Position numbers and translations under genes: made by a program
Part shown: piece after piece, positions 9,917 to 38,560 of the stretch
Layout of the letters: each line of letters begins with the position of its first letter
How positions within the stretch are numbered: the first letter of the stretch is position 1
The notes under the pieces: generated by a model
What the model saw: only the letters and a program-made list of their open reading frames with translations
Database searches by the model: none
Told to the model about the DNA's origin: nothing
Assembly: GCF_025399835.1 (NCBI RefSeq)
Contig: NZ_JAODVR010000002.1
Location: 186,001-250,000, forward strand
DNA length: 64,000 nt
Direction: 5' to 3'
Source of the DNA: Haloarchaeobius sp. HME9146
GTDB lineage: Archaea; Halobacteriota; Halobacteria; Halobacteriales; Natrialbaceae

Positions 9917-9923
9917 GCGTGAA

Positions 9924-23000: not shown

Positions 23001-23417
23001 TTACTCAGCCATACCGGTCACGACGACTGGGATCTCCGACTGCAACAACACCGACTGCGTTGTGCTGCCGAATAGCGCCTTGCCCACGGGAGAACGTTTC
23101 CGCCCCGCGATGACGACCTGCTCGGCCTCCAGATCGCGAGCCGCTTCCATGATGCCCTTGTCGACTGGACTGTATATCTCCTGTTTCTCTACCTCGATGC
23201 CGCGGTCTTCGAGGTGCGATTGCACTTCGACGACCGCGTCGCTCTCCTCAGGAGGGAGGGAATCGTCCATCGGGTTCTCGGCCTCGTCTTCGTCGGCGTA
23301 CGAGTGTACGATGGTCACCTCGATGGACGACGCCGCGTCCGGGAGTCCCGCGATATAGGATGCCTGTGTCAGTGCTCGTTCGACGTCCGTACCGACCGGT
23401 GCTACTATCCGGTACAT
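23001..23417 (-). CDS. universal stress protein (UspA family)
   Basis: 138 residues from ATG 23417 (MYRIVAPVGTDVERA); upstream in-frame codons give an unconvincing extension. It has the single UspA alpha/beta domain and the ATP-binding glycine motif near the C-terminus, GRKRSPVGKALFGSTTQSVL, fitting G-x2-G-x9-G-[ST] loosely. The last strand is IPVVVTGMAE. Such proteins bind nucleotides and are linked to stress survival. It is divergent from the MFS gene at 23532 with a 114-base gap that must hold both promoters. Nothing in the context indicates a more specific role. Confidence 0.92.
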   Translation of the reverse strand: MYRIVAPVGTDVERALTQASYIAGLPDAASSIEVTIVHSYADEDEAENPMDDSLPPEESDAVVEVQSHLEDRGIEVEKQEIYSPVDKGIMEAARDLEAEQVVIAGRKRSPVGKALFGSTTQSVLLQSEIPVVVTGMAE

Positions 23418-23531
23418 ACGGTAGCGACAACCACGCGCATCTACATAGTGTCTGGGGTCGGGAGCAGCCACGTGAGGGGAAATCTGCCATCGACAGAACA
23501 TTTTACCACCCACCCTGTGTATCGCTACTCC

Positions 23532-24707
23532 ATGCGTTCGCGTCGCGTCTGGACAGTCGTCTTGTTCGCGTTCGTCGCCGGGCACGGAGTCATACAGCAG
23601 TCCATGGGCGCACTCTTGCCGAGTTTCGAGGAAGAGTTCCTCGTCACGCAGGAACTGCTCGGGATGGTCGGGCCCGCAGCGACGCTCGGACTCCTGCTGA
23701 CGGTCATGCTCGTCGGGATGCGCTCCGGTGCCCTGGACATCGAACGGATGCTGGTCCTGGGGACGGCGGTTACGATCCTCGCCTCGGTGCTCATCAGCGT
23801 GACCAGCTCGTTCGCCACACTTCTTCTGTTCCTCTTTCTGCAGGGCGCAAGCGTCGGAATCGTCCGTGCGCTCGACCGGCCGCTACTCAGTCACCTCTAT
23901 CCGGACGGCCGCGGGCGAATCTTCAATCTCTATGCGCTGATGTGGGCGGTCGGGGCGACGGTCGGACCGCTGTTCGTCAACGCCGTCCTTGCGAACACAG
24001 ACTGGCGCGTTGTGTACGCCCTCGTCGCCCTCGCGTTCGTCCCGCTCCTCGTCGGCATGTGGCGACTGGACCTCCCTGCCGAATCGTGGTCGGAGGAGAC
24101 TATCTCCCTCCAGGCCCTCCGGACCGTACTGGAGAAGCCCGCTGTCATCGGGATGGTTGCCGCGCTCGTCTGCAGCGGGGCCATCGAGGGAACGGTGTTC
24201 ACCTGGCTCCCCTTCTATGCGTCCCAGTTCATGCCCCGCGAGTCGGCGAACGTCCTCCTCTCCAGTTTCCTCGTGATGTACATCCCCGCACGCCTGGCGT
24301 ACAGCGTGCTCGTGGAACGGGTCGGCCACCTGGACATCGTCGCCATCGTCGGGCTGGCCTCGCTGCCACTGCTCGTCATTGCCTTCGTGTTGCGTATCGA
24401 GGCGGTCTTCTTCCCGGCCGTGATGGGCCTCGGTCTGTTCGTCGCAGGGTTCTTCCCCACGCTCTCCGCGTTCGGCGTCGACACGACTCCGGAGTTCAGT
24501 GGTCCCGTGAACGCGATCGCCACCGGCGCGAACTTCCTCGGAATAACGGCCGGACCGTTCGTTGTGGGAATCTTCGCCGGTCGAGTTGGAATCACCGAAG
24601 CGATGCAGGTCATCGTGGCCATCATGGCTGGACTCGTAGCCATCACGGTTCTGACCCGATTCTCGGTCGACCGAGAGCGACGGCCAGCCGGGAGCGAATC
24701 GGTGTAG
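23532..24707 (+). CDS. MFS transporter
   Basis: 391 residues from ATG 23532 (MRSRRVWTVVLFAF). About twelve hydrophobic segments are visible, with a positively charged cytoplasmic start and the usual repeat of two six-helix halves; the central loop is near residues 180-205 (WRLDLPAESWSEETISLQALR). The fold is major facilitator superfamily, a secondary carrier driven by an ion gradient. It precedes the thiolase gene by 66 bases in the same direction, so it could import an acid used by the downstream acyl-CoA genes; export of a product is equally possible. The frame is open further upstream, but that part is antisense to the stress protein gene and I exclude it. Confidence 0.88.
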   Translation: MRSRRVWTVVLFAFVAGHGVIQQSMGALLPSFEEEFLVTQELLGMVGPAATLGLLLTVMLVGMRSGALDIERMLVLGTAVTILASVLISVTSSFATLLLFLFLQGASVGIVRALDRPLLSHLYPDGRGRIFNLYALMWAVGATVGPLFVNAVLANTDWRVVYALVALAFVPLLVGMWRLDLPAESWSEETISLQALRTVLEKPAVIGMVAALVCSGAIEGTVFTWLPFYASQFMPRESANVLLSSFLVMYIPARLAYSVLVERVGHLDIVAIVGLASLPLLVIAFVLRIEAVFFPAVMGLGLFVAGFFPTLSAFGVDTTPEFSGPVNAIATGANFLGITAGPFVVGIFAGRVGITEAMQVIVAIMAGLVAITVLTRFSVDRERRPAGSESV

Positions 24708-24773: not shown

Positions 24774-25940
24774 ATGCAAGCAGTCCGCATAGCGGGCGTA
24801 GCCGTGACTCCGTTCGGCGAACACTCGGAACGCACCGGGAGGGACCTGTTCGCCCAGGCGAGCGACGACGCCCTGGAGGGTGCCGATATCCCTCGTACCG
24901 ACATCGACGAGGTACTGTACGGCAACTTCATCGGCGAGGTCACCGAGGACCAGGGCCATCAGGGACCGCTCGTGGCGGAGGTCGCAGGAACGACCTCAGC
25001 CTCGACGCGGTTCGAGAGCGCCTGCGCGTCCGGTGGCGTGGCGATGCGTGCTGGGGTTCGGGCAGTCCGGAGCGGCGACGCCGACGTCGTCCTGGTCGGT
25101 GGGATGGAGCGGATGACGAACGTCGACGTCCATCACGCGACCGACGCCCTGGCACTGGCCGCCGACGACCTGCACGAACGCCGTGTCGGGATGACCTTCC
25201 CGGGAGCGTACGCCCTCCTCACGCGGGCCTACTTCAGGGAGTACGGCGGGTCGCGAGAGGAACTCGCAGCAGTCGCGGTGAAGAACCACGAGAACGCACT
25301 GGACAACGAGAACGCACATCTCCAGCAGGAGTTATCGATCGAGGACGTCCTGGATGCACCACCCATTGCCGAACCAGTCGGCCTGTACGACGCATGTCCC
25401 ATCAGCGATGGGGCCGCTGCGGTCGTCCTGGTCAGCGACGACTACGCCGACGAGCACGACCTCGACGCGCCAGTCGCCGTCACCGGAACCGGCCAGCGCA
25501 GCGACACCCTGGCGCTCCAGCGGCGTGCGAACCGGGCCGCCACGCCCGCAACCGAACAGGCGGCAGAAGCGGCGTACGAGATGGCAGGCGTCACGGCCGC
25601 AGACATCGACGTGGTGGAGGTCCACGATTGTTTCACCATCGCAGAGGTGCTCGCCATCGAGTCACTCGGGTTCTACGAACCGGGCGAGGGTATCTCGGCA
25701 GCCGCCTCGGGCGAGACGACTCGTGATGGCGAGCTTCCGGTCAACCTCTCCGGCGGCCTGAAGGCGAAGGGGCACCCGGTCGGCGCGACCGGTGTCGCAC
25801 AGATCGCAGAGCTCACCGAACTTCTGGCAGGCGAGCACGTCCACAGCGACGCGGTCCCCGAGGCCCGTGTCGGACTCGCGCACAATGCCGGTGGGACCGT
25901 CGCGAGTGCTGTCGTACATGTTTTGGAGGTGGTCGCATGA
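24774..25940 (+). CDS. thiolase family protein (SCP-x/acetyl-CoA acetyltransferase type)
   Basis: 388 residues. The nucleophilic cysteine lies in FESACASGGVAM (about residue 85), the catalytic histidine in VHDCFT (a HDC triad typical of SCP-x-like archaeal thiolases) and a second histidine in GGLKAKGHPVGATG near the C-terminus. Archaeal thiolases of this type work in a complex with a DUF35 protein, encoded directly downstream, and in other archaea with HMG-CoA synthase, which is absent here. That argues for a catabolic role: cleavage of acetoacetyl-CoA or another 3-ketoacyl-CoA. The gene ends within a 16-base direct repeat that recurs 59 bases later. Confidence 0.92.
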   Translation: MQAVRIAGVAVTPFGEHSERTGRDLFAQASDDALEGADIPRTDIDEVLYGNFIGEVTEDQGHQGPLVAEVAGTTSASTRFESACASGGVAMRAGVRAVRSGDADVVLVGGMERMTNVDVHHATDALALAADDLHERRVGMTFPGAYALLTRAYFREYGGSREELAAVAVKNHENALDNENAHLQQELSIEDVLDAPPIAEPVGLYDACPISDGAAAVVLVSDDYADEHDLDAPVAVTGTGQRSDTLALQRRANRAATPATEQAAEAAYEMAGVTAADIDVVEVHDCFTIAEVLAIESLGFYEPGEGISAAASGETTRDGELPVNLSGGLKAKGHPVGATGVAQIAELTELLAGEHVHSDAVPEARVGLAHNAGGTVASAVVHVLEVVA

Positions 25941-25999
25941 GCGAGCAACGCGAGTTCCTGCGAGTTCGCCGGGCCGCAGGTCCGGAGGTGGTCGCATGA
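25925..25999 (+). repeat. 16-base direct repeat splitting the thiolase/DUF35 junction
   Basis: GGAGGTGGTCGCATGA occurs at 25925-25940 and again, identically, at 25984-25999. Each copy holds a strong ribosome-binding site and an ATGA. The first copy contains the thiolase stop overlapping an ATG that opens a 20-codon frame (25937-25999); that frame ends in the second copy, whose ATG starts the DUF35 gene. The intervening part itself contains GCGAGTTC twice. It looks like a small tandem duplication of an ancestral thiolase-stop/DUF35-start overlap. Confidence 0.8.
25937..25999 (+). CDS. possible 20-codon coupling ORF between thiolase and DUF35 genes
   Basis: A minimal frame beginning at the ATG that overlaps the thiolase stop and ending in the TGA that overlaps the DUF35 start. 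It encodes MSEQREFLRV followed by RRAAGPEVVA. Ribosomes finishing the thiolase could reinitiate here and pass on to the DUF35 gene, preserving coupling despite the duplication. The peptide itself is probably without function. I list it because the two ATGA junctions and the GGAGGTGG sites are precisely placed. Confidence 0.35.
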   Translation: MSEQREFLRVRRAAGPEVVA

Positions 26000-26385
26000 A
26001 CGCCGAGACCAGGGACGCCGGGTACGACGAGTTCCTCGACGCCATCGCCAGCGACGAGGGCTACTATCTGGCGTGTCCCGAGGGGCATGGCTCGGTTCCC
26101 CCGACCCCACGCTGCCCGGTCTGTAACGCGACGGACCTCTCCGAGGAGCCGTTGCCCAGCTCAGGCGTCATCGAAGACCAGACCCACATCCACGTCGCCG
26201 CCAGTGGCTTCGAAGGCGAGACGCCGTACGTAGTCGCCATCGCGGCGTTCGGACCGGTCACGATGACAGGGCGACTCCGTGGCGACGCGGTCGCCGACCT
26301 GGACACGGGGGCAGCGGTCGTTCCATCGGTCGAACTATCGGACACCACCGGGAGTCGGATGCTCGTCTTCCGTCCAAGCAAGTAG
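25996..26385 (+). CDS. DUF35 (zinc-ribbon/OB-fold) thiolase partner protein
   Basis: 129 residues. An N-terminal helix (DEFLDAIASDEGYYLA) leads to a rubredoxin-like zinc ribbon and then an OB fold (SGVIEDQTHIHVA through VTMTGRLRG). DUF35 proteins bridge thiolase and its partners and help channel acetoacetyl-CoA. The ribbon is atypical: the second knuckle RCPVC is intact, but the first reads ACPEGHG instead of C-x2-C, leaving Cys27 and possibly His31 as ligands. It starts at the second copy of the direct repeat, right after the thiolase gene, and is clearly its partner. The frame is open far upstream, but only this start has the repeat-borne ribosome-binding site. Confidence 0.88.
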   Translation: MNAETRDAGYDEFLDAIASDEGYYLACPEGHGSVPPTPRCPVCNATDLSEEPLPSSGVIEDQTHIHVAASGFEGETPYVVAIAAFGPVTMTGRLRGDAVADLDTGAAVVPSVELSDTTGSRMLVFRPSK

Positions 26386-26416
26386 TACTATGCCGGTCGA
26401 GCATCCATCTGCGTCC

Positions 26417-26917
26417 ATGCGCAAACCACTGCGGAACACCAGCCCGCTCGTTGCAGAGTCCGCGTTCGTCTCGGACATGGCGTACCTCATCGGGGACGTC
26501 GTCGTCGACGAGCGCGCGAGCCTGTGGCCGTTCGTCTGCCTCCGGGGCGATGGCGCGACCGTCGACGTCGGCAAGGAGACGAACGTCCAGGAGTTCTCGA
26601 TGCTCCACGGGGCGACGCTCGGCGACGAGGTGACGGTCGGACACAACGCGGTCGTCGACTACGCCACCATCGAGGACCACTCGCTGGTCGGGATGCACAG
26701 CGCCGTGCTCCGGGGGGCCACGGTCGAATCGAACTGCATCGTCGCCGCGAACACGGTGGTCCTCCAGGACCAGACGATCCCCGAGGGGCACCTGGCGTAC
26801 GGGACTCCTGCGGAGACGAAACCGCTCAGCGACGCACAGCTCGACGAGATATCCCGCACACACGAGCACTACGTCGAACTCGGTCAGGAGTACAAGGAGT
26901 CCGGCGACTTCGAGTAG
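26417..26917 (+). CDS. gamma-carbonic anhydrase-like hexapeptide-repeat protein
   Basis: 166 residues of left-handed beta-helix repeats (VDVGKETNVQEF, VTVGHNAVVDYATIEDHSLVGMHSAVL) with a C-terminal helix. Relatives include gamma carbonic anhydrases, YrdA and PaaY. Metal ligands in active members are three histidines; here SMLHGATLG and VGHNAVV supply two, but the usual third (V-H-G-C) reads V-D-Y-A, so Asp replaces His. A zinc site with Asp is possible, or carbonic anhydrase activity is lost; PaaY-like thioesterase-type roles are an option given the acyl-CoA neighbours. It lies between DUF35 and the CoA ligase, all in one direction. An alternative ATG is at 26390. Confidence 0.85.
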   Translation: MRKPLRNTSPLVAESAFVSDMAYLIGDVVVDERASLWPFVCLRGDGATVDVGKETNVQEFSMLHGATLGDEVTVGHNAVVDYATIEDHSLVGMHSAVLRGATVESNCIVAANTVVLQDQTIPEGHLAYGTPAETKPLSDAQLDEISRTHEHYVELGQEYKESGDFE

Positions 26918-26983: not shown

Positions 26984-28996
26984 ATGTCAGACCAGCCATC
27001 GGATTCGGCAGCGATAGCGCACGAGCCGTCCGAGGCGTTCGTCGAGTCGACGAACGTCTGGGCGTTCATGCAGGCGCAAGACATCGCCGACTACGACGAA
27101 CTCATCGAACGAACGACGACCGACCTCGACGGGGTTCCGGACTCGGGTGTCGACTGGTTCTGGGACGAACTGGTCGACTACCTCGACATCGAGTTCTACG
27201 AGGAGTACGACTCCGTGCGGGATTCGAGCGACGGGCCGCAGTTCACCGACTGGTATCCGGGCGGTACCATCAACACGGCCCACAACGTCGTGGACCGTCA
27301 CGCCGTCCAAGGGAGCGAGACGCGGAACAAGGTCGCGCTCATCTGGGAAGGTGAGCCCGGCGACGTTCGAGAGATAACCTACCACGAGCTCCATCGGCAG
27401 GCCAACAAGGTCGCGAACTACCTCGAATCGGCCGGTATCGAGACCGGTGACACGGTCGGGCTATACATGCCGATGGTTCCGGAAGTCGTCTCCATCCTCT
27501 ATGGCTGTTTCAAGGTAGGTGCCATCGCCGTCCCCATCTTCTCCGGGTTCGGCGTCGACGCCGCCGCGACACGGATTGCCGACGCGGAGTGCTCGGTGCT
27601 GTTCACGGGAGATGGCTTCTACCGTCGCGGTGGCGAGATCACGCTCAAGGGGGCTGCCGACGACGCTATCGATGCGGCAGGCCACGTAGAAGAGACGGTC
27701 GTCTACGACCGGCTCGGTGGTTCGGACCCCGAGGCTGCCGTCGAGGTGCCCTGGGATGACGACCGCGACCAGTGGTGGCACGAGGCCGTCGAACCGCAGT
27801 CGGACGAGTACGAGACGAAGGAGCTCGGTTCCAACCAGGAGTCCATGCTGCTGTACTCCTCGGGGACGACGGGCACCCCGAAGGGTATCGTCCACACCCA
27901 CGCCGGGGCGCTGATGCAGTGCGCCAAGGAGTTACACTTCGGCTTCGACCAGAAGTCGTCGGACCGGTTCTTCTGGGTCTCCGACATCGGCTGGATGATG
28001 GGCCCGTGGACGCTCATCGGCAACCACGCGTTCGGCGGGACCGTCTTCATGTACGAGGGCGCTCCGGACCACCCCGAACCCGACCGGTTCTGGGAGATGA
28101 TCGACCGGCACAAGCTCACCCAGTTCGGCATCTCGCCGACGGCCATCCGCGCCCTGCGCAAGCACGGTGACGAGTGGGTCGAGAAGCACGACCTCTCCAG
28201 CCTGCGTCTCCTCGGGAGCACGGGCGAACCGTGGGACCCCGAGTCCTGGCACTGGTTCTACGAGAACGTGGGCGGAGGCGAGGCACCCATCATCAACATC
28301 TCCGGCGGCACGGAGATCTGCGGTTGCTTCCTCATGCCGATGCCCATCAACGACCTGAAGCCCTGCAGCCTCGGTGGCCCCGGACTCGGGATGGACATCG
28401 ACGTCGTCGATGGCGACGGCGAGAGCGTTCGCGAAGACAACGAACGCGGCTACCTCGTCGCCCGGGACTCCTGTCCCAGCATGACGAAGTCGCTCTGGTC
28501 GGGTGACGAGCGCTACCTCGAGGAGTACTGGAGCACCTGGGACGACCTCTGGGACCACGGCGACTGGGCCCAGAAGGACGAGGACGGCTTCTGGTTCCTC
28601 CACGGTCGCGCCGACGACGCGCTCAACGTGGCCGGTCGGAAGGTCGGGCCCGCCGAAATCGAAGGCGTCCTCTGCGAACACGACGACATCAACCAGGCCG
28701 CGGCCGTGGGTGTCCCCGACGACACCACCGGGACCGCCGTCGTCGCATTCTTCATCACCGAACCGGGCGTCGAGGCGAGCGACGAGTTGGCAGGTGAACT
28801 CCGCGAGCTGGTCGGCGAAGAACAGGGCAAACCCTTCCGGCCGCGAGAGCTCGTCTTCGTCGACGACCTGCCCCGAACCCAGTCGGGGAAGGTCATCCGG
28901 CGCGCCGTCGAGGCGGTCTACCGTGGTGAGGACCCCGGTGACCTCTCCTCGATGGAGAACCCGGCAGCGCTCGACGCTATCGAGGACGCAGTGTAG
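26984..28996 (+). CDS. acyl-CoA synthetase, acetyl-/acetoacetyl-CoA synthetase-like
   Basis: 670 residues of the adenylate-forming family. The phosphate-binding loop is LLYSSGTTGTPKGIVH (near residue 290), the A5 motif is NISGGTEICGCF, the hinge region lies near FLHGRADDALNVAGRKVGP and the catalytic lysine is in PRTQSGKVIRR. The length and the N-terminal W-F-W segment fit acetyl-CoA synthetases, but in those the A5 region reads W-W-Q-T-E, whose Trp limits the pocket to acetate; here it is G-G-T-E, as I recall for acetoacetyl-CoA synthetases. A larger acid such as acetoacetate or another short-chain acid is therefore likely. It follows the thiolase-DUF35-gamma-CA genes by 66 bases. Confidence 0.9.
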   Translation: MSDQPSDSAAIAHEPSEAFVESTNVWAFMQAQDIADYDELIERTTTDLDGVPDSGVDWFWDELVDYLDIEFYEEYDSVRDSSDGPQFTDWYPGGTINTAHNVVDRHAVQGSETRNKVALIWEGEPGDVREITYHELHRQANKVANYLESAGIETGDTVGLYMPMVPEVVSILYGCFKVGAIAVPIFSGFGVDAAATRIADAECSVLFTGDGFYRRGGEITLKGAADDAIDAAGHVEETVVYDRLGGSDPEAAVEVPWDDDRDQWWHEAVEPQSDEYETKELGSNQESMLLYSSGTTGTPKGIVHTHAGALMQCAKELHFGFDQKSSDRFFWVSDIGWMMGPWTLIGNHAFGGTVFMYEGAPDHPEPDRFWEMIDRHKLTQFGISPTAIRALRKHGDEWVEKHDLSSLRLLGSTGEPWDPESWHWFYENVGGGEAPIINISGGTEICGCFLMPMPINDLKPCSLGGPGLGMDIDVVDGDGESVREDNERGYLVARDSCPSMTKSLWSGDERYLEEYWSTWDDLWDHGDWAQKDEDGFWFLHGRADDALNVAGRKVGPAEIEGVLCEHDDINQAAAVGVPDDTTGTAVVAFFITEPGVEASDELAGELRELVGEEQGKPFRPRELVFVDDLPRTQSGKVIRRAVEAVYRGEDPGDLSSMENPAALDAIEDAV

Positions 28997-29140: not shown

Positions 29141-29560
29141 TCAGCTGGTTCGCTCGGCGTAGGGTGTGACCCCGGCGTCGTCCATGCGCTGGAGGAACCG
29201 TTCGCGACGGGTCTTCCGCTCGTCTTCGGACATGCGTTCTTTCGTCCAGATCTGGCCGCTGGTGTCCTGATGGACGATGACCTCCTCGACGGGGTCGAGT
29301 GCTTCGACGCGCTCGATTATCTCGTCGTTCATGTCGATGAAGTAGGTGCATAGCTGCGAGGTCAGCAGCAGCGTCACTTCGACGTGACGCCCGCCGTCGC
29401 GTGTCTCGATTCCCTCGACGAGACCGAGGTCGAGGATGCTGATTGGATGGTTGCTCGCGCAGCTACACGGGTCGAGTACCTCGTCCAGTTCGGCCTTGAT
29501 GGCCGACTTGAGGTCGTCGTCGAACTCGGTTTCGGGAGTGATGTGGCTGGACATGCTCAT
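29141..29560 (-). CDS. DUF59 / MIP18 family protein (PaaD-like, metal-sulfur maturation)
   Basis: 139 residues. The conserved core ISILDLGLVEGIE and a later cysteine in LLLTSQLCTYF match the DUF59 family (PaaD, SufT, MIP18), which helps assemble iron-sulfur or other metal sites. Unusually, DPCSCASNH inserts two cysteines just before the core where other members have a short turn. The ATG overlaps the amidohydrolase stop by four bases, so the two are made together. I recall a similar amidohydrolase plus DUF59 pair beside bacterial soluble diiron monooxygenases, which suggests a metal-loading role; no such monooxygenase is in this window. Confidence 0.85.
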   Translation of the reverse strand: MSMSSHITPETEFDDDLKSAIKAELDEVLDPCSCASNHPISILDLGLVEGIETRDGGRHVEVTLLLTSQLCTYFIDMNDEIIERVEALDPVEEVIVHQDTSGQIWTKERMSEDERKTRRERFLQRMDDAGVTPYAERTS

Positions 29561-30633
29561 GCACTCGTCTCGTAGGTGGACCAGGGTTCGACCGGGAACT
29601 CGGCAGTCTCACGCAGTTCCTGGCGCTTCTGGTCCCACTTGTCGCCCTCGATCTGGTCGCGGATGTCGTCGGGGTCCTCCCCGAGCAGGCGGAGTGCGTT
29701 CTTGCCGAGGATCTTCTCCTTGATCTCCTGTGTGACCTCGGGGTAGTCCTGGTTCACGCGGAGGTCCTCCGGCATCTCGAAGTCCCAGAGCCCCTCGATG
29801 GGTGGCTGCGGGTGCAGCGCCGTCGCTCCGCTGGCGAAGAGGATGCGGTCCGGGCCGGCCCAGTACAACATCTCACCCAGCGACTCGGCGAACTTCCGGG
29901 GCCGCGTGTTGACCATACAGACCGTGTTCTCGAGGTTGGCGTACACGTTCTCGTGGCTCGCCATCGCGAACACCGTCTCCTCGAGGAACGAGAAGCCCGC
30001 GTGGATGATCTCGAAGTTGAGGTCGGGGAACGACAGCGCTGCGTCCTCCACGTCGGCCATCCGGAAGTACCGGACCGGGGCCGTCGCGAACGGGATGAAC
30101 TTGTGCATCGCGACGGTGTCCACGTCGGAGTCGGCCGCCGCTTCGAGGATGGGCCAGACTGCGTCCTCGGTGAGCTGGAGCGAGAGGTCCTGGCCGTTCT
30201 GGTAGCGCGACGGGTAGAGCTTGATGCCCTTCACGAAGTCCTTCGAGGCGTAGTGGTGGACCTGCTCGACGGCGTCGTCCTCGAGCGGGTTGATGTCGAC
30301 GTACATCGATGTCCGGGTCGGGTTCTGTTCGCAGAACTCGAAGCCCTTCTCGCGCGAGACGTACCCGTCGTGGAAGTAGTCGTCGAGCGGGAGCGAGTGG
30401 TACACGGTGTAGTCGATCTGGCTCTCCAGGAAGATGAGGCGGGCGAGCTCCTCGGGCGAGTGGTCACGGTAGAAGACCTCTTCCGACGGCACGTGGCTGT
30501 CGGGGAGGAGTTTCGCGCCGAGTTCGTAGGTCTCGTCGTCCCATCGCTGGGCGTGTGGGTGCTTGTGGTTGTCGGGTGTGTGGTTGAAACAGTGACTGAC
30601 AGAGTCAACCACTAATGCGCCAGACTCTAACAT
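29557..30633 (-). CDS. amidohydrolase-fold protein (amidohydrolase 2 type) with degenerate metal site
   Basis: 358 residues, TIM-barrel fold of the amidohydrolase-2/ACMSD group. Start at ATG 30633 (MLESGALVVDSVSH). The first metal motif, normally D-x-H-x-H, reads D10-S-V-S-H14, so the first histidine is Val. Later VAMHKF and FEIIHAGFSF keep histidines at the usual positions, but the final Asp of the usual G-S-D-x-P motif is missing: LFASGATALHP. A normal hydrolase metal centre is therefore doubtful. It is translationally coupled to a DUF59 protein. It might be a chaperone-like or scaffold member, or use another metal arrangement. Divergent from the SDR at 30772. Confidence 0.82.
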   Translation of the reverse strand: MLESGALVVDSVSHCFNHTPDNHKHPHAQRWDDETYELGAKLLPDSHVPSEEVFYRDHSPEELARLIFLESQIDYTVYHSLPLDDYFHDGYVSREKGFEFCEQNPTRTSMYVDINPLEDDAVEQVHHYASKDFVKGIKLYPSRYQNGQDLSLQLTEDAVWPILEAAADSDVDTVAMHKFIPFATAPVRYFRMADVEDAALSFPDLNFEIIHAGFSFLEETVFAMASHENVYANLENTVCMVNTRPRKFAESLGEMLYWAGPDRILFASGATALHPQPPIEGLWDFEMPEDLRVNQDYPEVTQEIKEKILGKNALRLLGEDPDDIRDQIEGDKWDQKRQELRETAEFPVEPWSTYETSA

Positions 30634-30771: not shown

Positions 30772-31527
30772 ATGAGTGGTAGACTCACAGATACCGTAGC
30801 ACTGGTGACCGGTGCGGCATCCGGGAACGGCCGAGCTATCGCGCGACGCTTCGCCGAGGAGGGCGCAAGCGTAACCGTCGCGGACCTGCAGGTGGAACCC
30901 CGACTCGGCGGCGACCCGACGCACGAGGTCATCGAAGCCGAAGGTGGAACCGCACAGTTCGTCGAGACGGACGTGACCGACATCGACGCCCTCCGGAACG
31001 CGGTCGACCAGACCGTCGAGGCCTTCGGCTCGCTCGACGTGATGGTCAACAACGCGGGCGTCGACCGCCAACTCCCCATCGAAGAAGCGAGCGAGGAGGA
31101 CTTCGAGTTCCTTATGGACATCAACGTGAAGGGCGTCTACTTCGGCAGCCAGGTCGCCATCCAGACGATGCTGGACCAGGACGAGGGCGGCCGTATCATC
31201 AACATGTCCTCCATCGGGGGCATCCGCGGGCTCCCGAACTCCTCGCTCTACTGTACCTCGAAAGGTGCCGTCACGAACCTCACGCGCGAACTCGCGGTCG
31301 AGCACGGAGAGAACGACATCCGGGTGAACGCGCTCAATCCGGGGTTCATCGAGACGGCGATGACCCAGGAGGACGGCGACACGGCAGGTGGCATCCTCGA
31401 ACAGACTCCCCTCGGCCGGGCCGGTCAACCGGAAGAGGTGGCTGATGCGGCACTCTTCCTCGCCAGCGAGGAGTCCTCGTTCATGACCGGACACAACCTC
31501 GTGCTGGATGGCGGCTTCACGGCCTGA
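30772..31527 (+). CDS. short-chain dehydrogenase/reductase (SDR)
   Basis: 251 residues of classical SDR type. The nucleotide-binding motif is TGAASGNGRAIA (residues 12-23; the usual G-I-G is G-N-G), the NNAG motif is in VMVNNAGVD, the catalytic serine is in NMSSIGG, and Y-x3-K is YCTSKGA. Acidic Asp at the end of beta-2 (VADLQ) favours NAD over NADP. It oxidises a hydroxyl on an unknown substrate. It is followed 57 bases later by the AOR gene in the same direction and then by an alcohol dehydrogenase, so the three may act in sequence on alcohols or aldehydes. Confidence 0.93.
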   Translation: MSGRLTDTVALVTGAASGNGRAIARRFAEEGASVTVADLQVEPRLGGDPTHEVIEAEGGTAQFVETDVTDIDALRNAVDQTVEAFGSLDVMVNNAGVDRQLPIEEASEEDFEFLMDINVKGVYFGSQVAIQTMLDQDEGGRIINMSSIGGIRGLPNSSLYCTSKGAVTNLTRELAVEHGENDIRVNALNPGFIETAMTQEDGDTAGGILEQTPLGRAGQPEEVADAALFLASEESSFMTGHNLVLDGGFTA

Positions 31528-31584: not shown

Positions 31585-33255
31585 ATGCTTCACACCGAGG
31601 GGCACCTCCTGTCGATAGACTGTGGGGACCGTACGACCACTACCGAGAACATCGACGACATCGTCGAGACGTTCGTCGGCGGCCGCGGGGTCGCGACGAA
31701 ACTCGCCCACGAGCGCGTGCCGTTCGACGCCGACCCACTCGGCCCGGAGAACAGACTCTACCTGAGCACTGGCCCGATGCAGACGTCGAACATGAGCTTC
31801 ACCGGTCGGATGAACTGCACCGCCGTCTCACCACAGACCGGTGGCCTGCTCTCCTCGAACGCTGGCGGATTCATGTCGCGCCACTTCGCCGACACCGGCT
31901 ACGCTGCCATCGAGTTCACCGGGGCGTGCGACGAACTCAGCATCGTCCACGTCACCGACGAGGGCGTCGAGTTCGAACCGGTTCCGGACCTCGAACTGGC
32001 GACCGTCCCCGAGACGGTCGCGTACATCGAGGACGAGCACGGCCTCGACGCCGAACACACCGCGTGCATCGGCCCTGCCGGGGAGAACGCGGTCCGGTTC
32101 GCGTCCATCATGACGACCGAGAGCCGGGCGTTCGGCCGCGGTGGCCTCGGCGCTGTGCTCGGCTCGAAGAACATCAAGGCCATCACGTTCGAGGGTGACT
32201 CGCGCCACGAGATCGAGATTCCCCCGGTCCAGATGGACGTCCACCGGGACGCCGCGACCTCGGACAGCCTGATGAAGCGACAGGGAACGACCAACGTCAC
32301 GGACCTCGCCAACGAGGTCGACGCACTCCCGACGCGGTACTTCTCGGAGCTCTCCTTCGAGGGTGTCGAGGGCATCAACGGTGACAGCGTCGAGCAGAAG
32401 AAGTACAAACGCGGGACGTGCTCGGCCTGTGCGTTCGCCTGCAAGCTCCCGACGAAGGACGAGGAGCGCGGCGTCGAGACCGAAGGGCCCGAGTTCGAGA
32501 CCGTCATGTCGTTCGGGTCGAACGCGGGTGTCGACGACATCGTGGACGTGATGAAGTCGAACGACCTCTGCGACGAGTTCGGGATGGACACCATCTCCTG
32601 TGGCGACGTGGTCTCGGCCTACCTCGCGAGCGAGGACGAGTTCGGGAACACCGACCTCATCTTCGACCTCGTCGAGAAGATCGCCTACCGTGAAGACGTG
32701 GGTGACACGCTCGCCGAAGGCATCGACCGCTTCCACGAGGAACTCGGCGTGGAGAACTGGACCGTCAAGGGACTGGAGTTCGCGGCTCACGATGGCCGGA
32801 CACTCCACGGCCAGGGGCTCAGCTACGCCACGGCGAACCGCGGCGCGGACCACATGTATACCACGCTGTACTCGTGGGAATATCCCCTGGTGGAGAAGGA
32901 CGAGGCCCTCCCACAGGGCGGCCTCGAAGGAAAGGCACCCTTCGTCGTCAGACAAGAGAACGCCCGCGCCTTCGAGGACTGTGGCATCATCTGTCGGTTC
33001 TCGCGTGGCACGATGACGGAAGAACGCTTCGAGGGACTGTTCGACGCGGACTACGACGAGATGCTCGCCATCGGCTCGCGTGTGGTGGAACTCGAACGCC
33101 ACTTCAACAACCAGCGTGGCTTCGACCGGGCGGACGACCGCCTGCCGTACGACCTGCCCGACTTCGAGACGGCACTCGACGAGTACTACGGCGTGCGTGA
33201 CTGGAACGACGACGGGACCGTTCCCGACGACCACGTCGCGGTCCAGTCGGACTGA
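31585..33255 (+). CDS. aldehyde:ferredoxin oxidoreductase (AOR) family, tungsten/molybdopterin enzyme
   Basis: 556 residues, a little shorter than the usual 600-620. N-terminal motifs VGGRGVATKLAHE and the N-terminal pterin-binding domain are followed by the Fe4S4 ligands C279-S-A-C282-x3-C286 and, near the end, Cys470 (DCGIICRF). The GPEFETV and GMDTIS segments and YATANRGADH (about 414-423) match cofactor-contacting positions. It should oxidise an aldehyde to the acid with ferredoxin as acceptor in the cytoplasm. Flanked by an SDR and a zinc alcohol dehydrogenase, it fits an alcohol to aldehyde to acid series that would feed the nearby CoA ligase. Substrate unknown. Confidence 0.92.
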   Translation: MLHTEGHLLSIDCGDRTTTTENIDDIVETFVGGRGVATKLAHERVPFDADPLGPENRLYLSTGPMQTSNMSFTGRMNCTAVSPQTGGLLSSNAGGFMSRHFADTGYAAIEFTGACDELSIVHVTDEGVEFEPVPDLELATVPETVAYIEDEHGLDAEHTACIGPAGENAVRFASIMTTESRAFGRGGLGAVLGSKNIKAITFEGDSRHEIEIPPVQMDVHRDAATSDSLMKRQGTTNVTDLANEVDALPTRYFSELSFEGVEGINGDSVEQKKYKRGTCSACAFACKLPTKDEERGVETEGPEFETVMSFGSNAGVDDIVDVMKSNDLCDEFGMDTISCGDVVSAYLASEDEFGNTDLIFDLVEKIAYREDVGDTLAEGIDRFHEELGVENWTVKGLEFAAHDGRTLHGQGLSYATANRGADHMYTTLYSWEYPLVEKDEALPQGGLEGKAPFVVRQENARAFEDCGIICRFSRGTMTEERFEGLFDADYDEMLAIGSRVVELERHFNNQRGFDRADDRLPYDLPDFETALDEYYGVRDWNDDGTVPDDHVAVQSD

Positions 33256-33359
33256 ACGCTTCGGTCCACCGGTCGGCAGCAGTCGTCGCCTGCCACCAGC
33301 CCTGGAAGAGCAGTGCCACATACGAATCCTTTTGTGCGTGGTCCATGGTACTCTGGCCC

Positions 33360-34433
33360 ATGAGGGTTGCAAATTACTACGGCCCCGGAGACGTCCGTGT
33401 CGAATCGGTGTCCGAACCCGACCTCGGCCCGGACGAGGTTCGAATCGAGATCGCCGCGTGTGGCATCTGCGGCACCGACCTGCACGAGTACGAGGAGGGT
33501 CCCGACCTGACGCCCGAGGAGGATACCTCCCATCCCTTGACCGGGGTCTCCCTGCCCGTTCCGCTCGGGCACGAGTTCAGTGGCACCGTCACGGCCGTCG
33601 GCGACGAGGCCGAAGGTGTTGCGGTCGGCGACGAGGTTACGGCGAACCCGGCGATGGTCTGTGGGGACTGTCGGTACTGTGCCGAAGGTCGGCACAACCT
33701 CTGTGAGTCTGTCGCGAACACCGGCCTGTCTGCAAAGAGTGGCGGGTTCGCCGAGTCCGCGGTCGTCCCGGCAGACAACGTCGTCCAGCTTCCCGACGGT
33801 GTCCCTGTCGAGTACGGAGCGCTGGTCGAACCGTTCAGCGTCGGTGTTCACGCGACTCGCCGGTCCGGCATGCAGACAGGTGACAGCGTCGCCGTCTTCG
33901 GCGCAGGGCCCATCGGCATCTCCATCGTCCAGGCGGCGACGGCTGCGGGCGCGAAGGAGGTGTTCGTCTCCGAACCGCGCGCGAAGCGACGTGAGATAGC
34001 CGAGGAAGTCGGTGCGAGGACCACGCTCGACCCGACGACGACGGAGGCGGTCGACGAGATCACCGACGCGACCGACGGTGGCGTCGACGTGGCCTTCGAG
34101 GCAGTCGGTATCGAGCCGACGTTCAAAGCCGCCATCGAAGCGACCAAGCGCGGCGGTCAGATCACCGCGGTTGGCATCTCCGACGACGACGTCGGGCTGA
34201 CGCCGAACGAGCTCGTCGTCGTCGAACGGACCATCACTGGCTCGAACGGCTACCTCAGTGGGCCACTCGCGGACCGTGAGTTCGAGATGGTCACGAGCTT
34301 CCTCGAATCCGGTGAGTTCGACCCTGAGCCGATGATAACCGCCCGCATCTCGCTCGAGGACATCGTCGAGGAAGGATTCGAAAAACTGCTCGATCCAGAG
34401 AGCGAGCACGTCAAGATACTCGTCGAACCGTAA
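33360..34433 (+). CDS. zinc-dependent medium-chain alcohol dehydrogenase (butanediol/sorbitol dehydrogenase-like)
   Basis: 357 residues from ATG 33360 (MRVANYYGPGDV); an in-frame ATG five codons earlier is possible. Catalytic zinc residues are Cys37 (CGTD) and His71-Glu72 (GHE). The structural zinc cysteines are C101, C104, C107 and C115. The NAD-binding motif is VFGAGPIGISIV followed by an acidic residue (VSEPRAKRR), suggesting NAD. Closest in style to 2,3-butanediol and polyol dehydrogenases. It lies downstream of the AOR gene in the same direction with a 104-base gap. It would oxidise a secondary alcohol or polyol in the same catabolic block. Confidence 0.93.
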   Translation: MRVANYYGPGDVRVESVSEPDLGPDEVRIEIAACGICGTDLHEYEEGPDLTPEEDTSHPLTGVSLPVPLGHEFSGTVTAVGDEAEGVAVGDEVTANPAMVCGDCRYCAEGRHNLCESVANTGLSAKSGGFAESAVVPADNVVQLPDGVPVEYGALVEPFSVGVHATRRSGMQTGDSVAVFGAGPIGISIVQAATAAGAKEVFVSEPRAKRREIAEEVGARTTLDPTTTEAVDEITDATDGGVDVAFEAVGIEPTFKAAIEATKRGGQITAVGISDDDVGLTPNELVVVERTITGSNGYLSGPLADREFEMVTSFLESGEFDPEPMITARISLEDIVEEGFEKLLDPESEHVKILVEP

Positions 34434-34583: not shown

Positions 34584-35585
34584 TTACTTCACCACGTCGA
34601 TCTTCCGGCGGTCGATGGACAGCGCGACCGCAGCGACCACGACCACGCCCAGGATGATCTCCTGGACGAACGAGTCGACCGCGAGCAGGTTCATCCCGTT
34701 GCGCAGCACGCCGATGACGAGGACACCGAGGATGGTTCGGTGGGGGCCCCCGACACCGCCGGTCAGTGCGGTCCCGCCCATGACGATAGCTGCGATGCTG
34801 GGCAGCAGCAGGCCAGCGCCGAGCCCCGGCGACGCCGAGGAGATACGGGCCGCGAACAGGAAGCCAGCGAGGCCACACAGCAGGCCCGAGAGCACGAACG
34901 GGTAGATCTTGTACCGGTCGACCTTCGCACCAGCGAGTTCGACGACCTTCTCGTTCTCACCCAGTGCGAAACTGTAGCGTCCGAACTTGGTCCGCCACGC
35001 GAGGAACACCGAGGCACCGTACAGGATGAGGCCCCAGAACACGAGGTTGGGGACTCCGGGGATGTACTCGCCCGTGGCGATGGTACGGACCGCCGGGTTG
35101 CGGAACGTGATGGTCGACCCGCCGGTGATGATGAGCGCGAAGCCGTTGATCACCGACAGCGTACCGAGGGTCACCAGGAACGACGGGACCTTCAGCTTGG
35201 TGAACACGAGCCCGTTCGCGAGGCCCGCAAGCATCCCGACCACGATGACCATCGGGATGGCGAGCATTCCGAAGTCGCTCACCAGCAAGACGGTGAGCAC
35301 GGCCGTCAGGCTGACGATGGATTCGACCGAGAGGTCGATGCTCTGCTGGAGGATCGGGAAGGTGCCCGCCAGCGCGACGAGCAGCAAGAACGCGCTGTTC
35401 TTCGCGACGTTCCCGACCAGGTTGTTGTAGGTCAGGAAGTTCTCCGACATCGTGGAGAACAGGATGCCGAGGACGATGAGCATCGCGAACGGACCGAGGT
35501 CGATGATCCAGTCCTGACGGGTGCGTTCTTCTCGCTTCTCATGTAACCAGTCTCGAATCGCGTTGGATGTTTCGTTCGTACTCAT
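34584..35585 (-). CDS. sugar-type ABC importer permease (RbsC-like)
   Basis: 333 residues with eight to ten predicted membrane segments and the family loop GENEKVVELAGAKVDRYKI (E-x3-A/L-x-G) that contacts the ATPase. Similar to RbsC/AraH permeases of the ribose-type importers. It starts one base after the end of the ATPase gene, with the stop and start nearly overlapping, so the order binding protein, ATPase, permease forms one operon. Substrate class for such systems is pentoses, polyols or autoinducer-like sugars; in this setting a hydroxy acid or polyol feeding the dehydrogenases is plausible. Confidence 0.92.
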   Translation of the reverse strand: MSTNETSNAIRDWLHEKREERTRQDWIIDLGPFAMLIVLGILFSTMSENFLTYNNLVGNVAKNSAFLLLVALAGTFPILQQSIDLSVESIVSLTAVLTVLLVSDFGMLAIPMVIVVGMLAGLANGLVFTKLKVPSFLVTLGTLSVINGFALIITGGSTITFRNPAVRTIATGEYIPGVPNLVFWGLILYGASVFLAWRTKFGRYSFALGENEKVVELAGAKVDRYKIYPFVLSGLLCGLAGFLFAARISSASPGLGAGLLLPSIAAIVMGGTALTGGVGGPHRTILGVLVIGVLRNGMNLLAVDSFVQEIILGVVVVAAVALSIDRRKIDVVK

Positions 35586-35586
35586 T

Positions 35587-37152
35587 TCAGATCATCTTCT
35601 GAATCAGGTCTTCTTCGGTCGGCTTGTTCCCGGCTGAGGCGTCGATCGTTTCACCGACGAGTCGTCCATCGCGCATGACGGCGATGCGGTTCGACATCCC
35701 GATGACCTCGGGAAGCTCGTCGCCGATGAAGACGATGGAGACTCCTTCGTCGGTGAGTTCACGGCAGAGGCGGTACACCTCCTCCTTCGCACCGACGTCG
35801 ATACCCCGCGTCACGTTGTCCATCACGAGGACCGGCGTGTCGCGAGCGAGCCAGCGCGCGATGACGACCTTCTGCTGGTTGCCGCCACTGAGCCCGTGCA
35901 CGAGGGCATCCGGGCCGGGCGTCTTGATGTTCAGCTCCTCGATGGTCTCGGCGGTGACCTTGTCCTCGGCCTCGAGGTCGAGGAGCGGCAACAGGCCGTT
36001 CATGTCCCGGATCATCGCCAGAGAGGTGTTCATCGTCACCGACTGGAACAACAACAGTCCCTCCGACTTCCGGTCCTTCGGGATGTAGCCGACACCCGCG
36101 TCGACCATGTCCGCCGGTGAGGACGGTCTGATCTCCGTCCCGGCCACAGAGACGTTCCCGTCGGTCGGGGAGAGTGCGCCCGCGAGCATCCGCCCCAGGC
36201 GTTCCTTCCCTGACCCTTCGACACCGACCACGCCGAGGATCTCTCCCTCGTGCAGGTCGAAGGAGACCGGGCCGATGTCGTCCTCGAACTGGAGTTTCGA
36301 CGCCTGGAACACCGTTTCCCCCAGGGCGTCGGCCGTCCGCTGGTCGGAGACGCGGTAGTACTCGTCCGACGACTCGCGGCCGACCATCCGCTCCTGGAGC
36401 GAGTCCTGCGTCGCGTCCGCCGCCATCGTCTCGCCGACGAGTTCGCCGTCCTTGAGGACGTAGATGCGGTCGGACATCTCGAGCACCTCGTCGAGTTCGT
36501 GGGAGACGAAGACGAACGTCGCCTTATCTCGGAGGTCGTTCACCAGGTCGAAGAGAATCTCACGTCCCGCTTCTTCGAGTCCGGCGGTCGGTTCGTCCAA
36601 CAAGATGACCGGGTGGTCCGACTCGCGGGACGTGTGGAACGCCTTCGCGATCTCGAGCATCTGCCGCTCGTTGAACGAGTAGTTCTGGACGTACTCGTCC
36701 ATGTCGATGTTGATGCCGAGGTCGTCGACGAACGCCTGGGCCTCCTCGCGCATCTTGCTGTGCTTGAGGATACCGAAGCGCTCCTGTTCGCGGGCGAGGA
36801 AGAGGTTCTCGTAGCCCTTCAGGTTCGGGATGACGTCCTGCTCCTGATGGACCAGCGAGACACCGAGTTCCGATGCCTGCCGCGGGTTGGTGAGTTCGAC
36901 AGGGTCGCCGTCGATGACGATACGACCGTCGTCCGGCGAGAGGACACCCGTCAGTATGTTCAACAGGGTACTCTTGCCGGCACCGTTCTCGCCGACGAGC
37001 CCGACTACCTCTCCACGGTCGATGCGTAAAGAGACGCCGTCGAGCGCAGTGACGTGTCGGAACGACTTCGACACGTCTTCGACGACCAGACTCGGTTCCG
37101 AGTCTGGGCGGGAATCGCCTGATTGGTCAAGTTCCATGTCTGGTGTGCTCAT
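35587..37152 (-). CDS. sugar-type ABC importer ATPase with two nucleotide-binding domains (RbsA-like)
   Basis: 521 residues, a tandem ATPase. Domain 1: Walker A GENGAGKST, a degenerate signature YSFNERQMLEIAKAF and Walker B VILLDEPTAGL. Domain 2: a degenerate Walker A GVEGSGKERLGRML, but a good signature LSGGNQQKVVIARWL and VLVMDNVTRGID. This one-good, one-poor pattern is usual for RbsA/MglA proteins. Part of a complete importer with the genes on either side. Start at ATG 37152 leaves a 22-base gap from the binding-protein stop. Confidence 0.93.
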   Translation of the reverse strand: MSTPDMELDQSGDSRPDSEPSLVVEDVSKSFRHVTALDGVSLRIDRGEVVGLVGENGAGKSTLLNILTGVLSPDDGRIVIDGDPVELTNPRQASELGVSLVHQEQDVIPNLKGYENLFLAREQERFGILKHSKMREEAQAFVDDLGINIDMDEYVQNYSFNERQMLEIAKAFHTSRESDHPVILLDEPTAGLEEAGREILFDLVNDLRDKATFVFVSHELDEVLEMSDRIYVLKDGELVGETMAADATQDSLQERMVGRESSDEYYRVSDQRTADALGETVFQASKLQFEDDIGPVSFDLHEGEILGVVGVEGSGKERLGRMLAGALSPTDGNVSVAGTEIRPSSPADMVDAGVGYIPKDRKSEGLLLFQSVTMNTSLAMIRDMNGLLPLLDLEAEDKVTAETIEELNIKTPGPDALVHGLSGGNQQKVVIARWLARDTPVLVMDNVTRGIDVGAKEEVYRLCRELTDEGVSIVFIGDELPEVIGMSNRIAVMRDGRLVGETIDASAGNKPTEEDLIQKMI

Positions 37153-37174: not shown

Positions 37175-38527
37175 TTATTTGAGCGGGTTGTTCTGGAGCT
37201 GTTGCTCGTACGTCTGCGCGACCTCGTCCATCGCGGCCTCGTCGTCGAAGACCTCGTGGAGAGTGTATCCGCTGGGTTTGTTGCTCTCCTCCCAGTCGAG
37301 CAGGCTCTTCAGGTCCGTCTTCCGGATCGGCTCCATCCTGATCTGGGGGTCCCAGTCGTCGCCCGAGGCCGCCACGGACATCTTCTTCCAGTCGTACGGG
37401 GTCTCGCCCTCGAAGATGTCCTTCTTGTACTGGGCGGCGTCGAGGATGGGCAGTTGCGTCTCGTCGCCGATCATGTCCTGCCACTTGCCGGGGTCTTTCA
37501 CCGTCAGCGGTGAGTCGAACGACATCATCCGCTCGGCGGGCTTGAGCTTGTGCCCCTGCAGGTAGTCGTACACCTTCGCCATCGACCAGCCGGCCTGCCA
37601 CGGGCCCATCCCGGAGACGGAGCCGGTGAGTCGGCCTTCCTCGATCAGTTCGAGGCCGGGTTCGCTGGAGTCGATGCCGACGACCGGCACGTCGAAGTCG
37701 TTCTCCTCGAGCATCGTCAGCCCACCGATGGCGACGGCGTCGTTCTGGCCGAAGAAGCCCTCGATCTTGTCGCCGTGCTTGGAGATGAGGTCGGACATCG
37801 CCTTCCGGGAGTCCGAACGGACCCAGTTCCCCTGCAGACGCGGGCCGAGCAGTTCGATGTCGGGGTACTCCTCGAGCGCCTTCTGGACGCCGAGGTTACG
37901 ACCGATGTTCGGGGCGGTCCCACGGTTCCCCTCGATGTGGACGAAGCCACCGCTGCCGCCCATCTCCTCGAAGAGCACCTTCGCGGCCGTGTACGCGTGT
38001 CGGACGAAGTGCGGAGTGAAGAACTGCGTGTACTCCTCACCAGCGTCCATCGGTGTGTACCACTTCGCGATGGTGACCGCGAGCACGGTCGGAACACCGG
38101 CCTGGACACACGTCTCGGCGAGCGAGATCGCGGCCGCGTTCGTGTACGTCTGGCCGACGATGGCGTCCGTGTTGTTCGCGATCGCGGTGTCGAACTGCTG
38201 TTGCTGCTTGCTGACCTGCCCGTCGTTGGTCTGGAGGTTCTGGTCGAAGTCGAAGGCGGCAGCTGCCTCCTCGTAGCCCTTCTTCCAGGACAGCCAGTAC
38301 GAGTTCTTCAGGTTTGCGATGGACCCCATCGACGTCAGGGAGTCACCGGAGTTACCGCCACCGCCACCACCGCCGGTGTCGTCGCCGCCACCGCCGCCGC
38401 CACCGTTACTGGTCGATCCCGAGTCACCGGCACACCCTGCAATCGCACCGAGTCCCATCGTCGTCCCACCCGCGACGGTCTTCTTCATGAAGTTCCGGCG
38501 GGAGTGGTTGGTGCTATCTCTTGCCAT
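37175..38527 (-). CDS. Tat-exported sugar-type binding lipoprotein (RbsB-like, type I fold)
   Basis: About 450 residues from ATG 38527 (MARDSTNHSRRNFMKK). Twin arginines in HSRRNFMKKTVAGG, lipobox IAGCAG, then a long Gly-Ser-Asp linker typical of haloarchaeal lipoproteins. The body is a type I periplasmic-binding fold (SMGSIANLKNSYWLSWKKGYE, ANNTDAIVGQTY, FGQNDAVAIGG). It catches the ligand for the RbsAC-like transporter. An AT-rich element at 38561-38570 lies about 38 bases upstream. Divergence from typical ribose binders is large, so the ligand cannot be assigned. Confidence 0.92.
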   Translation of the reverse strand: MARDSTNHSRRNFMKKTVAGGTTMGLGAIAGCAGDSGSTSNGGGGGGGDDTGGGGGGGNSGDSLTSMGSIANLKNSYWLSWKKGYEEAAAAFDFDQNLQTNDGQVSKQQQQFDTAIANNTDAIVGQTYTNAAAISLAETCVQAGVPTVLAVTIAKWYTPMDAGEEYTQFFTPHFVRHAYTAAKVLFEEMGGSGGFVHIEGNRGTAPNIGRNLGVQKALEEYPDIELLGPRLQGNWVRSDSRKAMSDLISKHGDKIEGFFGQNDAVAIGGLTMLEENDFDVPVVGIDSSEPGLELIEEGRLTGSVSGMGPWQAGWSMAKVYDYLQGHKLKPAERMMSFDSPLTVKDPGKWQDMIGDETQLPILDAAQYKKDIFEGETPYDWKKMSVAASGDDWDPQIRMEPIRKTDLKSLLDWEESNKPSGYTLHEVFDDEAAMDEVAQTYEQQLQNNPLK

Positions 38528-38560
38528 GTATTGAACAACCTGAACATGAGAGGGCACCCA

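Follow-up and report, generated by a model that had tools for sequence, protein, structure and literature searches.

An amidohydrolase with altered metal-ligand positions and its DUF59 partner: a candidate two-part catabolic enzyme of a conserved haloarchaeal gene cluster

Amidohydrolases of the TIM-barrel fold hold their metal with histidines at strands β1, β5 and β6 and an aspartate at β8, and the canonical mononuclear ligand set reads HxH, His, His and Asp. The superfamily includes decarboxylases and hydrolases that act on C-C or C-O bonds. In a 64,000-nucleotide stretch of DNA from Haloarchaeobius sp. HME9146 (hereafter the window; G000:C2, 186001-250000), haloarchaeal also by its relatives, an amidohydrolase gene (AH) that departs from this pattern overlaps a DUF59-family gene by 4 bp (29557-29560). 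Is such a protein an amidohydrolase that has lost its metal, and does the pair serve another metal enzyme or act as an enzyme itself? We show herein that this variant of the AH-DUF59 pair is real and conserved; as far as the accessible parts of the literature examined show, it is under-described.

The AH matches the Pfam family PF04909 (Amidohydro_2) over residues 101-318 (E=5e-24; 86 bits against a cut-off of 26.4). Its ATG at 30633 matches the start sites of its homologues; the longer TTG frame (30687) is unneeded. An earlier note on this DNA had read the first motif as D-S-V-S-H and the final Asp motif as replaced by A-S-G-A, and both readings stand: the β1 motif, canonically D-x-H-x-H, is D10-S-V-S-H14, and the β8 motif is F-A-S-G269-A, in which Asp is absent. 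Thus the canonical mononuclear set is incomplete, with V12 in place of the first His and G269 in place of the Asp. The same note spoke of "lost metal ligands", which is half true, because two new residues, H274 and E235, appear in the alignment where the canonical His and Asp vanish, and H14, K138, H177, K178 and H211 stay. H274 lies just past β8, and E235 just past the predicted β7 strand. Judged by the alignment, the AH ligands look relocated, not merely lost. A search for a close relative of the AH with a solved structure found none.

The partner matches PF01883 of Pfam with 27.4 bits, above the curated cut-off of 23.5. The two extra cysteines before the core that the earlier note had remarked on are C32 and C34, which lie in a D-P-C-S-C motif, and the core cysteine, C71, is common to every DUF59 partner aligned. 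A PaaD (NF041868, TIGR02159) or SufT (TIGR03406) identity was considered and rejected, the scores against the PaaD, SufT and SUF-associated NCBIfam models being far below their cut-offs (38.5 of 143.4, 34.5 of 180, 29.6 of 202.6 and 25.6 of 108.15). The pair and its neighbors are listed in Table 1.

Table 1. The AH-DUF59 pair and neighboring genes, in window coordinates
Feature	Coordinates	Strand	Remarks
Universal stress protein	23001..23585	-	gene recurs at cluster edge
Thiolase	24774..25940	+	
OB-fold DUF35-type thiolase partner	25996..26385	+	just below Pfam cut-off
Gamma-carbonic-anhydrase-like hexapeptide protein	26345..26917	+	
Acyl-CoA synthetase, acetate-CoA ligase type	26984..28996	+	under equivalog cut-off
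DUF59 / FeS_assembly_P partner	29141..29560	-	139 aa; C32, C34, core C71; PF01883
AH, group B	29557..30633	-	358 aa from ATG; PF04909; alignments and counts
SDR dehydrogenase, divergent from AH	30772..31527	+	PF13561; recurrent near AH in haloarchaeal cluster
Aldehyde:ferredoxin oxidoreductase family (AOR)	31585..33255	+	PF01314, PF02730
Zn-type alcohol dehydrogenase	33345..34433	+	nearest model IolM, below its cut-off
ABC transporter permease (BPD_transp_2, RbsC-like)	34584..35585	-	
ABC transporter ATPase, two ABC stretches (RbsA-like)	35587..37152	-	
Sugar-type substrate-binding protein (Peripla_BP_4)	37175..38557	-	
SDR, 3-hydroxybutyrate dehydrogenase / FabG type	38661..39437	-	top models FabG, 3-hydroxybutyrate dehydrogenase
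β-keto acid cleavage enzyme (BKACE)	39561..40415	+	PF05853, E=2.6e-98; located by tblastn
IclR-type regulator	40943..41710	+	

Relatives were collected from one genome scan (12 loci), from a plasmid collection, and from 392 same-phylum genomes, an even sample of a larger group; 24 of these genomes matched the AH at 1e-20 or better. Bacterial members come from plasmid records only. The plasmid collection gave 38 records with an AH match and 8 with a DUF59 match, all 8 being within the 38. Twenty-seven of the 38 were taken as annotated regions, H2 is the same as L002, and H19, H20, H23, H28, H30, H31, H34, H35, H37 and H38 were left out. The last, a Haloferax gibbonsii plasmid (NZ_CP063208.1, 22795-23015), holds only two short AH fragments, which cover 21% of the query at 78% identity and are perhaps a relic. 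Sixty-six AH rows were aligned; with L066 (identical to L005) and the outgroup L096 kept outside the counts, 64 rows remained, all distinct. They form three groups: A (n=35, including the propane-monooxygenase type), B (n=27, the group of the window) and C (n=2).

Every row of group A carries His12, Asp269 and Ala235 (35/35 each), so that Glu235 is absent throughout, and His274 is likewise found in none of the 35; His14 is present in 33, with Ala in the other two. Two group-A AHs, from Peribacillus (L023, 5962-6996) and Rhodococcus JS3073 (L025, 5902-7017), have a D-x-H-V-A motif that keeps the first β1 His and has Ala for the second, a mirror image of group B; with these two set aside, group A fits the canonical ligand pattern. 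In groups B and C together, no His occurs at position 12 in the 28 readable rows (V in 25, S in 1, A in 2; one row is unreadable) and no Asp at position 269 in 29 (G in 26, E in 3). His14 is found in 28 of 28 readable rows, His274 in 29 of 29, and Glu235 in 26 of 29, the exceptions being L059, L092 and L095; for group B alone, the figures are all 27 for His274 and 26/27 for Glu235. K138, H177, K178 and H211 are present in all 64 rows. The AH of the window has every mark of group B: no His12, no Asp269, His274, a DPC partner, and adjoining genes.

With the cut for a fixed column set at ≥97% of the 35 A rows and ≥96% of 26 B rows (L061, L092, L095 and L096 excluded), 11 of 358 columns are fixed and unlike between the two groups: H12V, D17N, Y87F, T141P, T181P, R216F, D219E, F220T, G233N, A235E and D269G. 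Three of these are ligand or putative ligand positions. The 26 full-length group-B AHs are all distinct; 16 are close kin from the haloarchaeal cluster, and 10 are about 30-35% identical to the AH of the window, an identity computed for nine of them, with L060 being a near relative of L013. Because these motif states recur in 26 distinct full-length proteins, chance or sequencing error as their source is ruled out.

These counts could be read as degeneration, the AH being a metal-free pseudo-enzyme, or as the mark of a LigI-type hydrolase that works without metal, in either case with the DUF59 protein as a structural partner. Two canonical ligands are indeed absent in every readable group-B protein, and the superfamily has metal-free members, of which the LigI-type hydrolase is an example. 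Nonetheless, an invariant H274 and a near-invariant E235 are new, and H14, K138, H177, K178 and H211 occur in every readable row of groups B and C. Degeneration would not be expected to fix new residues, which argues against this reading and leaves it, in our estimate, distinctly unlikely.

The state of the AH is matched by that of its partner. DUF59 partners of group A read DPE in 34 of the 34 found (L063, L069, L070, L073, L074 and L083 among them), the 35th locus, L088, being cut by a contig end. Those of group B read DPC, with a cysteine at the position of C32, in 26 of the 26 found, L009 included. The 27th locus, L061 (7983-8732, a Natrinema caseinilyticum plasmid), holds a truncated group-B AH annotated as 249 aa, and no DUF59 partner was found there. 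C34 occurs only among the close haloarchaeal relatives; the distant L059 carries DPCC instead. In this Nonomuraea locus (8537-9969), the DUF59 gene lies upstream of the AH gene, and the AH combines a β8 Glu and the new His with Ala235, possibly an intermediate state. In group C (Shinella and Ensifer), which has a β8 Glu plus the new His, a NifU-type protein with a C-x-x-C motif replaces DUF59 at both loci. It is annotated as such in Shinella, and the Ensifer protein is 63% identical to it. The latter scores far below the cut-offs of the NifU and NfuA NCBIfam models and gives a weak match to the DUF59 profile (3.5e-05 in a small set), which agrees with the shared structural superfamily of NifU-type and DUF59 domains. 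At L092 (5800-7103) and L095 (5800-7115), the AH gene, whose product has Glu at β8 and a His of the H274 type, overlaps a NifU-type gene, and both pairs adjoin a conserved gene annotated as an SDR. The Shinella group-C locus also holds sugar-phosphate isomerases and an inositol monophosphatase-family gene.

In a tree of the AHs, from which twelve near-copies or fragments were excluded, group A lies on one side of a branch with support of 100/100, group B is weakly supported (62/84), and the group-C pair sits on a long branch (100/99). Many AH rows are near-copies of one another. As the A/B split is one branch, the exceptionless association between AH and partner motif may rest on one evolutionary event. 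In these alignments the association points strongly to a joint function but does not prove it.

Such an association might also arise if C32 and C71 of the DUF59 protein and histidines of the AH jointly held one metal or Fe-S cluster at a shared interface. The Glu-to-Cys change of the partner falls exactly in the group with altered AH ligands, and the group-C partner has its C-x-x-C; on the other side, the A/B switch is a single branch, and C32 might just as well belong to a site within the DUF59 protein alone. We consider this composite site improbable, the least probable of the explanations weighed. If true, the AH would have surrendered two ligands and moved others (E235, H274) while the partner contributes cysteine, and an enzyme of the amidohydrolase superfamily would have a Cys/His site assembled with a lasting Fe-S carrier subunit; the NifU-type C-x-x-C protein of group C would then be another answer to the same problem.

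Predicted structures bear on these readings at the level of fold. The AH model has a mean pLDDT of 54, with residues 1-109 and 268-277 under 50, and is too poor to show that H14, H177, H211, E235 and H274 meet. It matches isoorotate decarboxylase and further amidohydrolase-fold proteins at TM-scores of ~0.3-0.5, which is a fold-level hint only. The DUF59 model (pLDDT 81) is matched by Foldseek to the DUF59 structures 3cq1/3cq2 and 3lno; the segment with C32 and C34 (residues 31-40) has a mean pLDDT of only 64.

The earlier note had stated that an AH-DUF59 pair accompanies propane-type diiron monooxygenases with an alcohol dehydrogenase (ADH) nearby, and had taken the present pair to be a maturation device freed from such an enzyme or serving one encoded elsewhere. 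The former statement was borne out among bacterial group-A loci, where monooxygenase genes lie upstream in 8 of 11 stretches, called by annotation in L024, L089, L090, L091 and L093, by BLAST in L097 and L025, and by an alpha-subunit match only in L020; no monooxygenase genes were seen in the stretches of L019, L023 and L026. GroEL adjoins all eight monooxygenase-linked loci, and an ADH lies <3 kb from the AH in five of the eight. The extension to haloarchaea fared differently. The diiron monooxygenase family PF02332 had no match in any of the 24 haloarchaeal genomes with the pair, including that of the window itself (4.19 Mb, three contigs); in the same search, 6/6 monooxygenase plasmids were positive, with two matches each, and the 14 control genomes of the search tool were all silent. 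A search of the Haloarchaeobius genome for another diiron family, PF02406, found no match, and its controls were silent too. The plasmids behind L014 and L019 have PF02332 genes at >100 kb from the pair, and the plasmid records behind L013, L015, L016, L017, L018 and L022 (these records only) gave no match; L092 and W15 lay outside the records covered. As far as PF02332 reaches, the idea that the pair serves a monooxygenase encoded elsewhere is rejected, and a monooxygenase-maturation role of the group-B pair in haloarchaea is not supported. The alignment with monooxygenase-linked AHs tells in the same direction: these retain the first β1 His and the β8 Asp, and it is the other group that changed.

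In a wider form of the idea, the pair would catalyze nothing itself and would act as a maturation or chaperone device for the metal site of the AOR or of some other metal enzyme. In its favor, both DUF59 and NifU-type domains belong to families of Fe-S assembly, an AOR lies near the pair in the window, and an AH without canonical ligands would suit a helper, as would the bacterial loci with their diiron monooxygenases. Against it, PF02332 has no match in the haloarchaeal genomes searched, the stretch examined in Haloarcula contains an aldehyde dehydrogenase but lacks an AOR, and among L016, L017, L059 and L063-L088, the AOR of the window was matched only at the cluster loci L066 and L068. Moreover, the putative active-site residues are invariant across highly divergent AHs. 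We therefore regard a maturation device as unlikely, if ahead of the other two alternatives.

The pair usually has a dehydrogenase for a neighbor. A divergent ADH adjoins the AH in 21/22 archaeal group-A loci and in two annotated haloarchaeal plasmids, and such AH-adjoining ADHs of archaea occur in genomes with no PF02332 match. The haloarchaeal ADH beside the group-A pair of L021 shares 43% identity with its counterpart in a Paracoccus monooxygenase cluster and 45% with the one of Thermomicrobium. An SDR or ADH match at ≤3 kb was recorded in 25/29 rows of groups B and C and in 29/35 rows of group A, many of which are kin; within that distance none was found in 4/29 and 6/35, respectively. As dehydrogenases are common in catabolic clusters, adjacency is weak evidence for a shared pathway. 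Even so, archaeal pairs beside dehydrogenases in genomes without a PF02332 match point to a catabolic step, and this question is thereby testable in a haloarchaeon.

Haloarchaeal relatives keep around the pair the SDR, the AOR, the acetate-type CoA ligase, the gamma-carbonic-anhydrase-like protein, the OB-fold protein and thiolase, the RbsABC-like transporter, the universal stress protein and BKACE, the last being matched in 9 of the 12 genome-scan loci, three of these cut by the stretch edge. The set varies: Natronorubrum (L002, L012, L062) showed neither a thiolase nor an OB-fold nor a carbonic-anhydrase-like gene next to the pair, no thiolase or OB-fold match was found in L001 and L003, and no AOR match in L009. 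Natronorubrum aibiense has an aldehyde dehydrogenase as well as the AOR, and the Zn-type ADH of the window was matched only in L011 among the 12 genome-scan loci. The substrate-binding protein scored low against the allose and ribose models, among others. The second SDR scores best with FabG and 3-hydroxybutyrate dehydrogenase models, which fits a conversion of a hydroxy acid to a β-keto acid, followed by cleavage, CoA activation and thiolysis. Judged by the families of the neighbors, candidate substrates of the pathway include acetone, 2,3-butanediol, cyclitols, carnitine and rings like that of phloroglucinol. Near the IclR end of the cluster lies a gene for a rod-determining factor A family protein (41938-42576, minus strand; PF21811, 7e-69). 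A promoter scan of the sigma-70 type, which is not apt for archaea, led nowhere.

From the residues, the partners and the neighborhood, we arrive at a reading to which we give about an even chance: the AH and the DUF59 protein would make up a catabolic two-part enzyme, with a dedicated Fe-S or metal-handling partner, in a conserved haloarchaeal cluster. The relocated AH ligands and the new cysteine of the partner suggest a working two-part enzyme, not a broken one. The AH would be the catalytic TIM-barrel subunit, and its metal site would have been rebuilt in group B, with the first β1 His and the β8 Asp gone, H14, H177 and H211 kept, and H274 and E235 put to use as new putative ligands, in step with the Glu-to-Cys change at C32 of a partner in presumed contact with it. 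We infer that the DUF59 protein serves the AH specifically, rather than as a general assembly factor. The substrate may be the carbonyl product of the neighboring dehydrogenase, here probably the divergent SDR, and the reaction is most likely a metal-assisted hydrolytic cleavage or decarboxylation. The pathway as a whole would import a small sugar- or polyol-like compound and end in β-keto acid, CoA ligase and thiolase steps. The coupled change in AH ligands and partner pinpoints residues for mutation, and this coupling could show how a carrier domain for Fe-S clusters is turned into an enzyme component.

Several known systems resemble this one in part. The clusters of propane- and acetone-type soluble diiron monooxygenases hold a homologous AH (profile-profile probability 100, 28% identity to that of the window) adjacent to a gene for a DUF59-family partner ("iron-sulfur cluster assembly protein"). 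Their AH differs from that of the window in that neither the first β1 His nor the β8 Asp is lost; the DUF59 protein that goes with it is longer (about 240-270 aa against 139 aa) and has DPE in place of DPC; and GroEL and monooxygenase genes lie near, whereas the window has neither. The association of the pair with monooxygenases has already been published as gene layouts (PMC9213486, PMC6849523, in the parts available), and those parts draw the AH and DUF59 genes near propane or acetone monooxygenases with no stated role. In the available part of a gas-seep study, the layout figure labels an amidohydrolase (PMC9213486). For Mycobacterium AT1, the accessible text describes an amidohydrolase, an unknown protein and an alcohol dehydrogenase located apart from the monooxygenase, with GroEL staying adjacent, and reports that GroEL is essential for functional expression in a heterologous host (PMC6849523). 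A table of relative protein abundance in an acetone/2-HIBA-degrading actinobacterium gives 3.2 for the Mim amidohydrolase-like protein and 4.0 for the chaperone MimG in the portion seen (PMC7176365), a value for the former that is compatible with an enzyme and a chaperone alike. The accessible parts of the literature examined on the pair and its clusters held no stated function for it, and those of PMC8305020 and PMC8394569 held nothing on the pair.

PaaD, SufT and SUF-associated DUF59 proteins share domain family and fold with the DUF59 protein of the window, which differs in having DPC, not DPE, and in the coupling of its gene to that of an AH. The back end of the window's cluster is paralleled in the phloroglucinol cluster of Clostridium scatologenes, which, in the available part of its description, has a hydroxyacid dehydrogenase, a β-keto acid cleavage enzyme and a thiolase and likewise includes a C-C hydrolase step, but with a hydrolase of the "cyclase" family, not an AH, and as there described with no DUF59, AOR or sugar transporter (PMC10470551). 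A further comparison lies within the same cell: a second AH-DUF59 pair of the Haloarchaeobius genome (G000:C1, about 1143.6-1146.6 kb; L063, 6645-9604), part of a haloarchaeal ADH-AH-DUF59 triad. Like the pair in the window, it stands beside a divergent dehydrogenase; unlike it, the triad has canonical ligands, a DPE-type DUF59 protein and a Zn-type ADH instead of the SDR. This canonical pair provides a natural internal control within the same genome.
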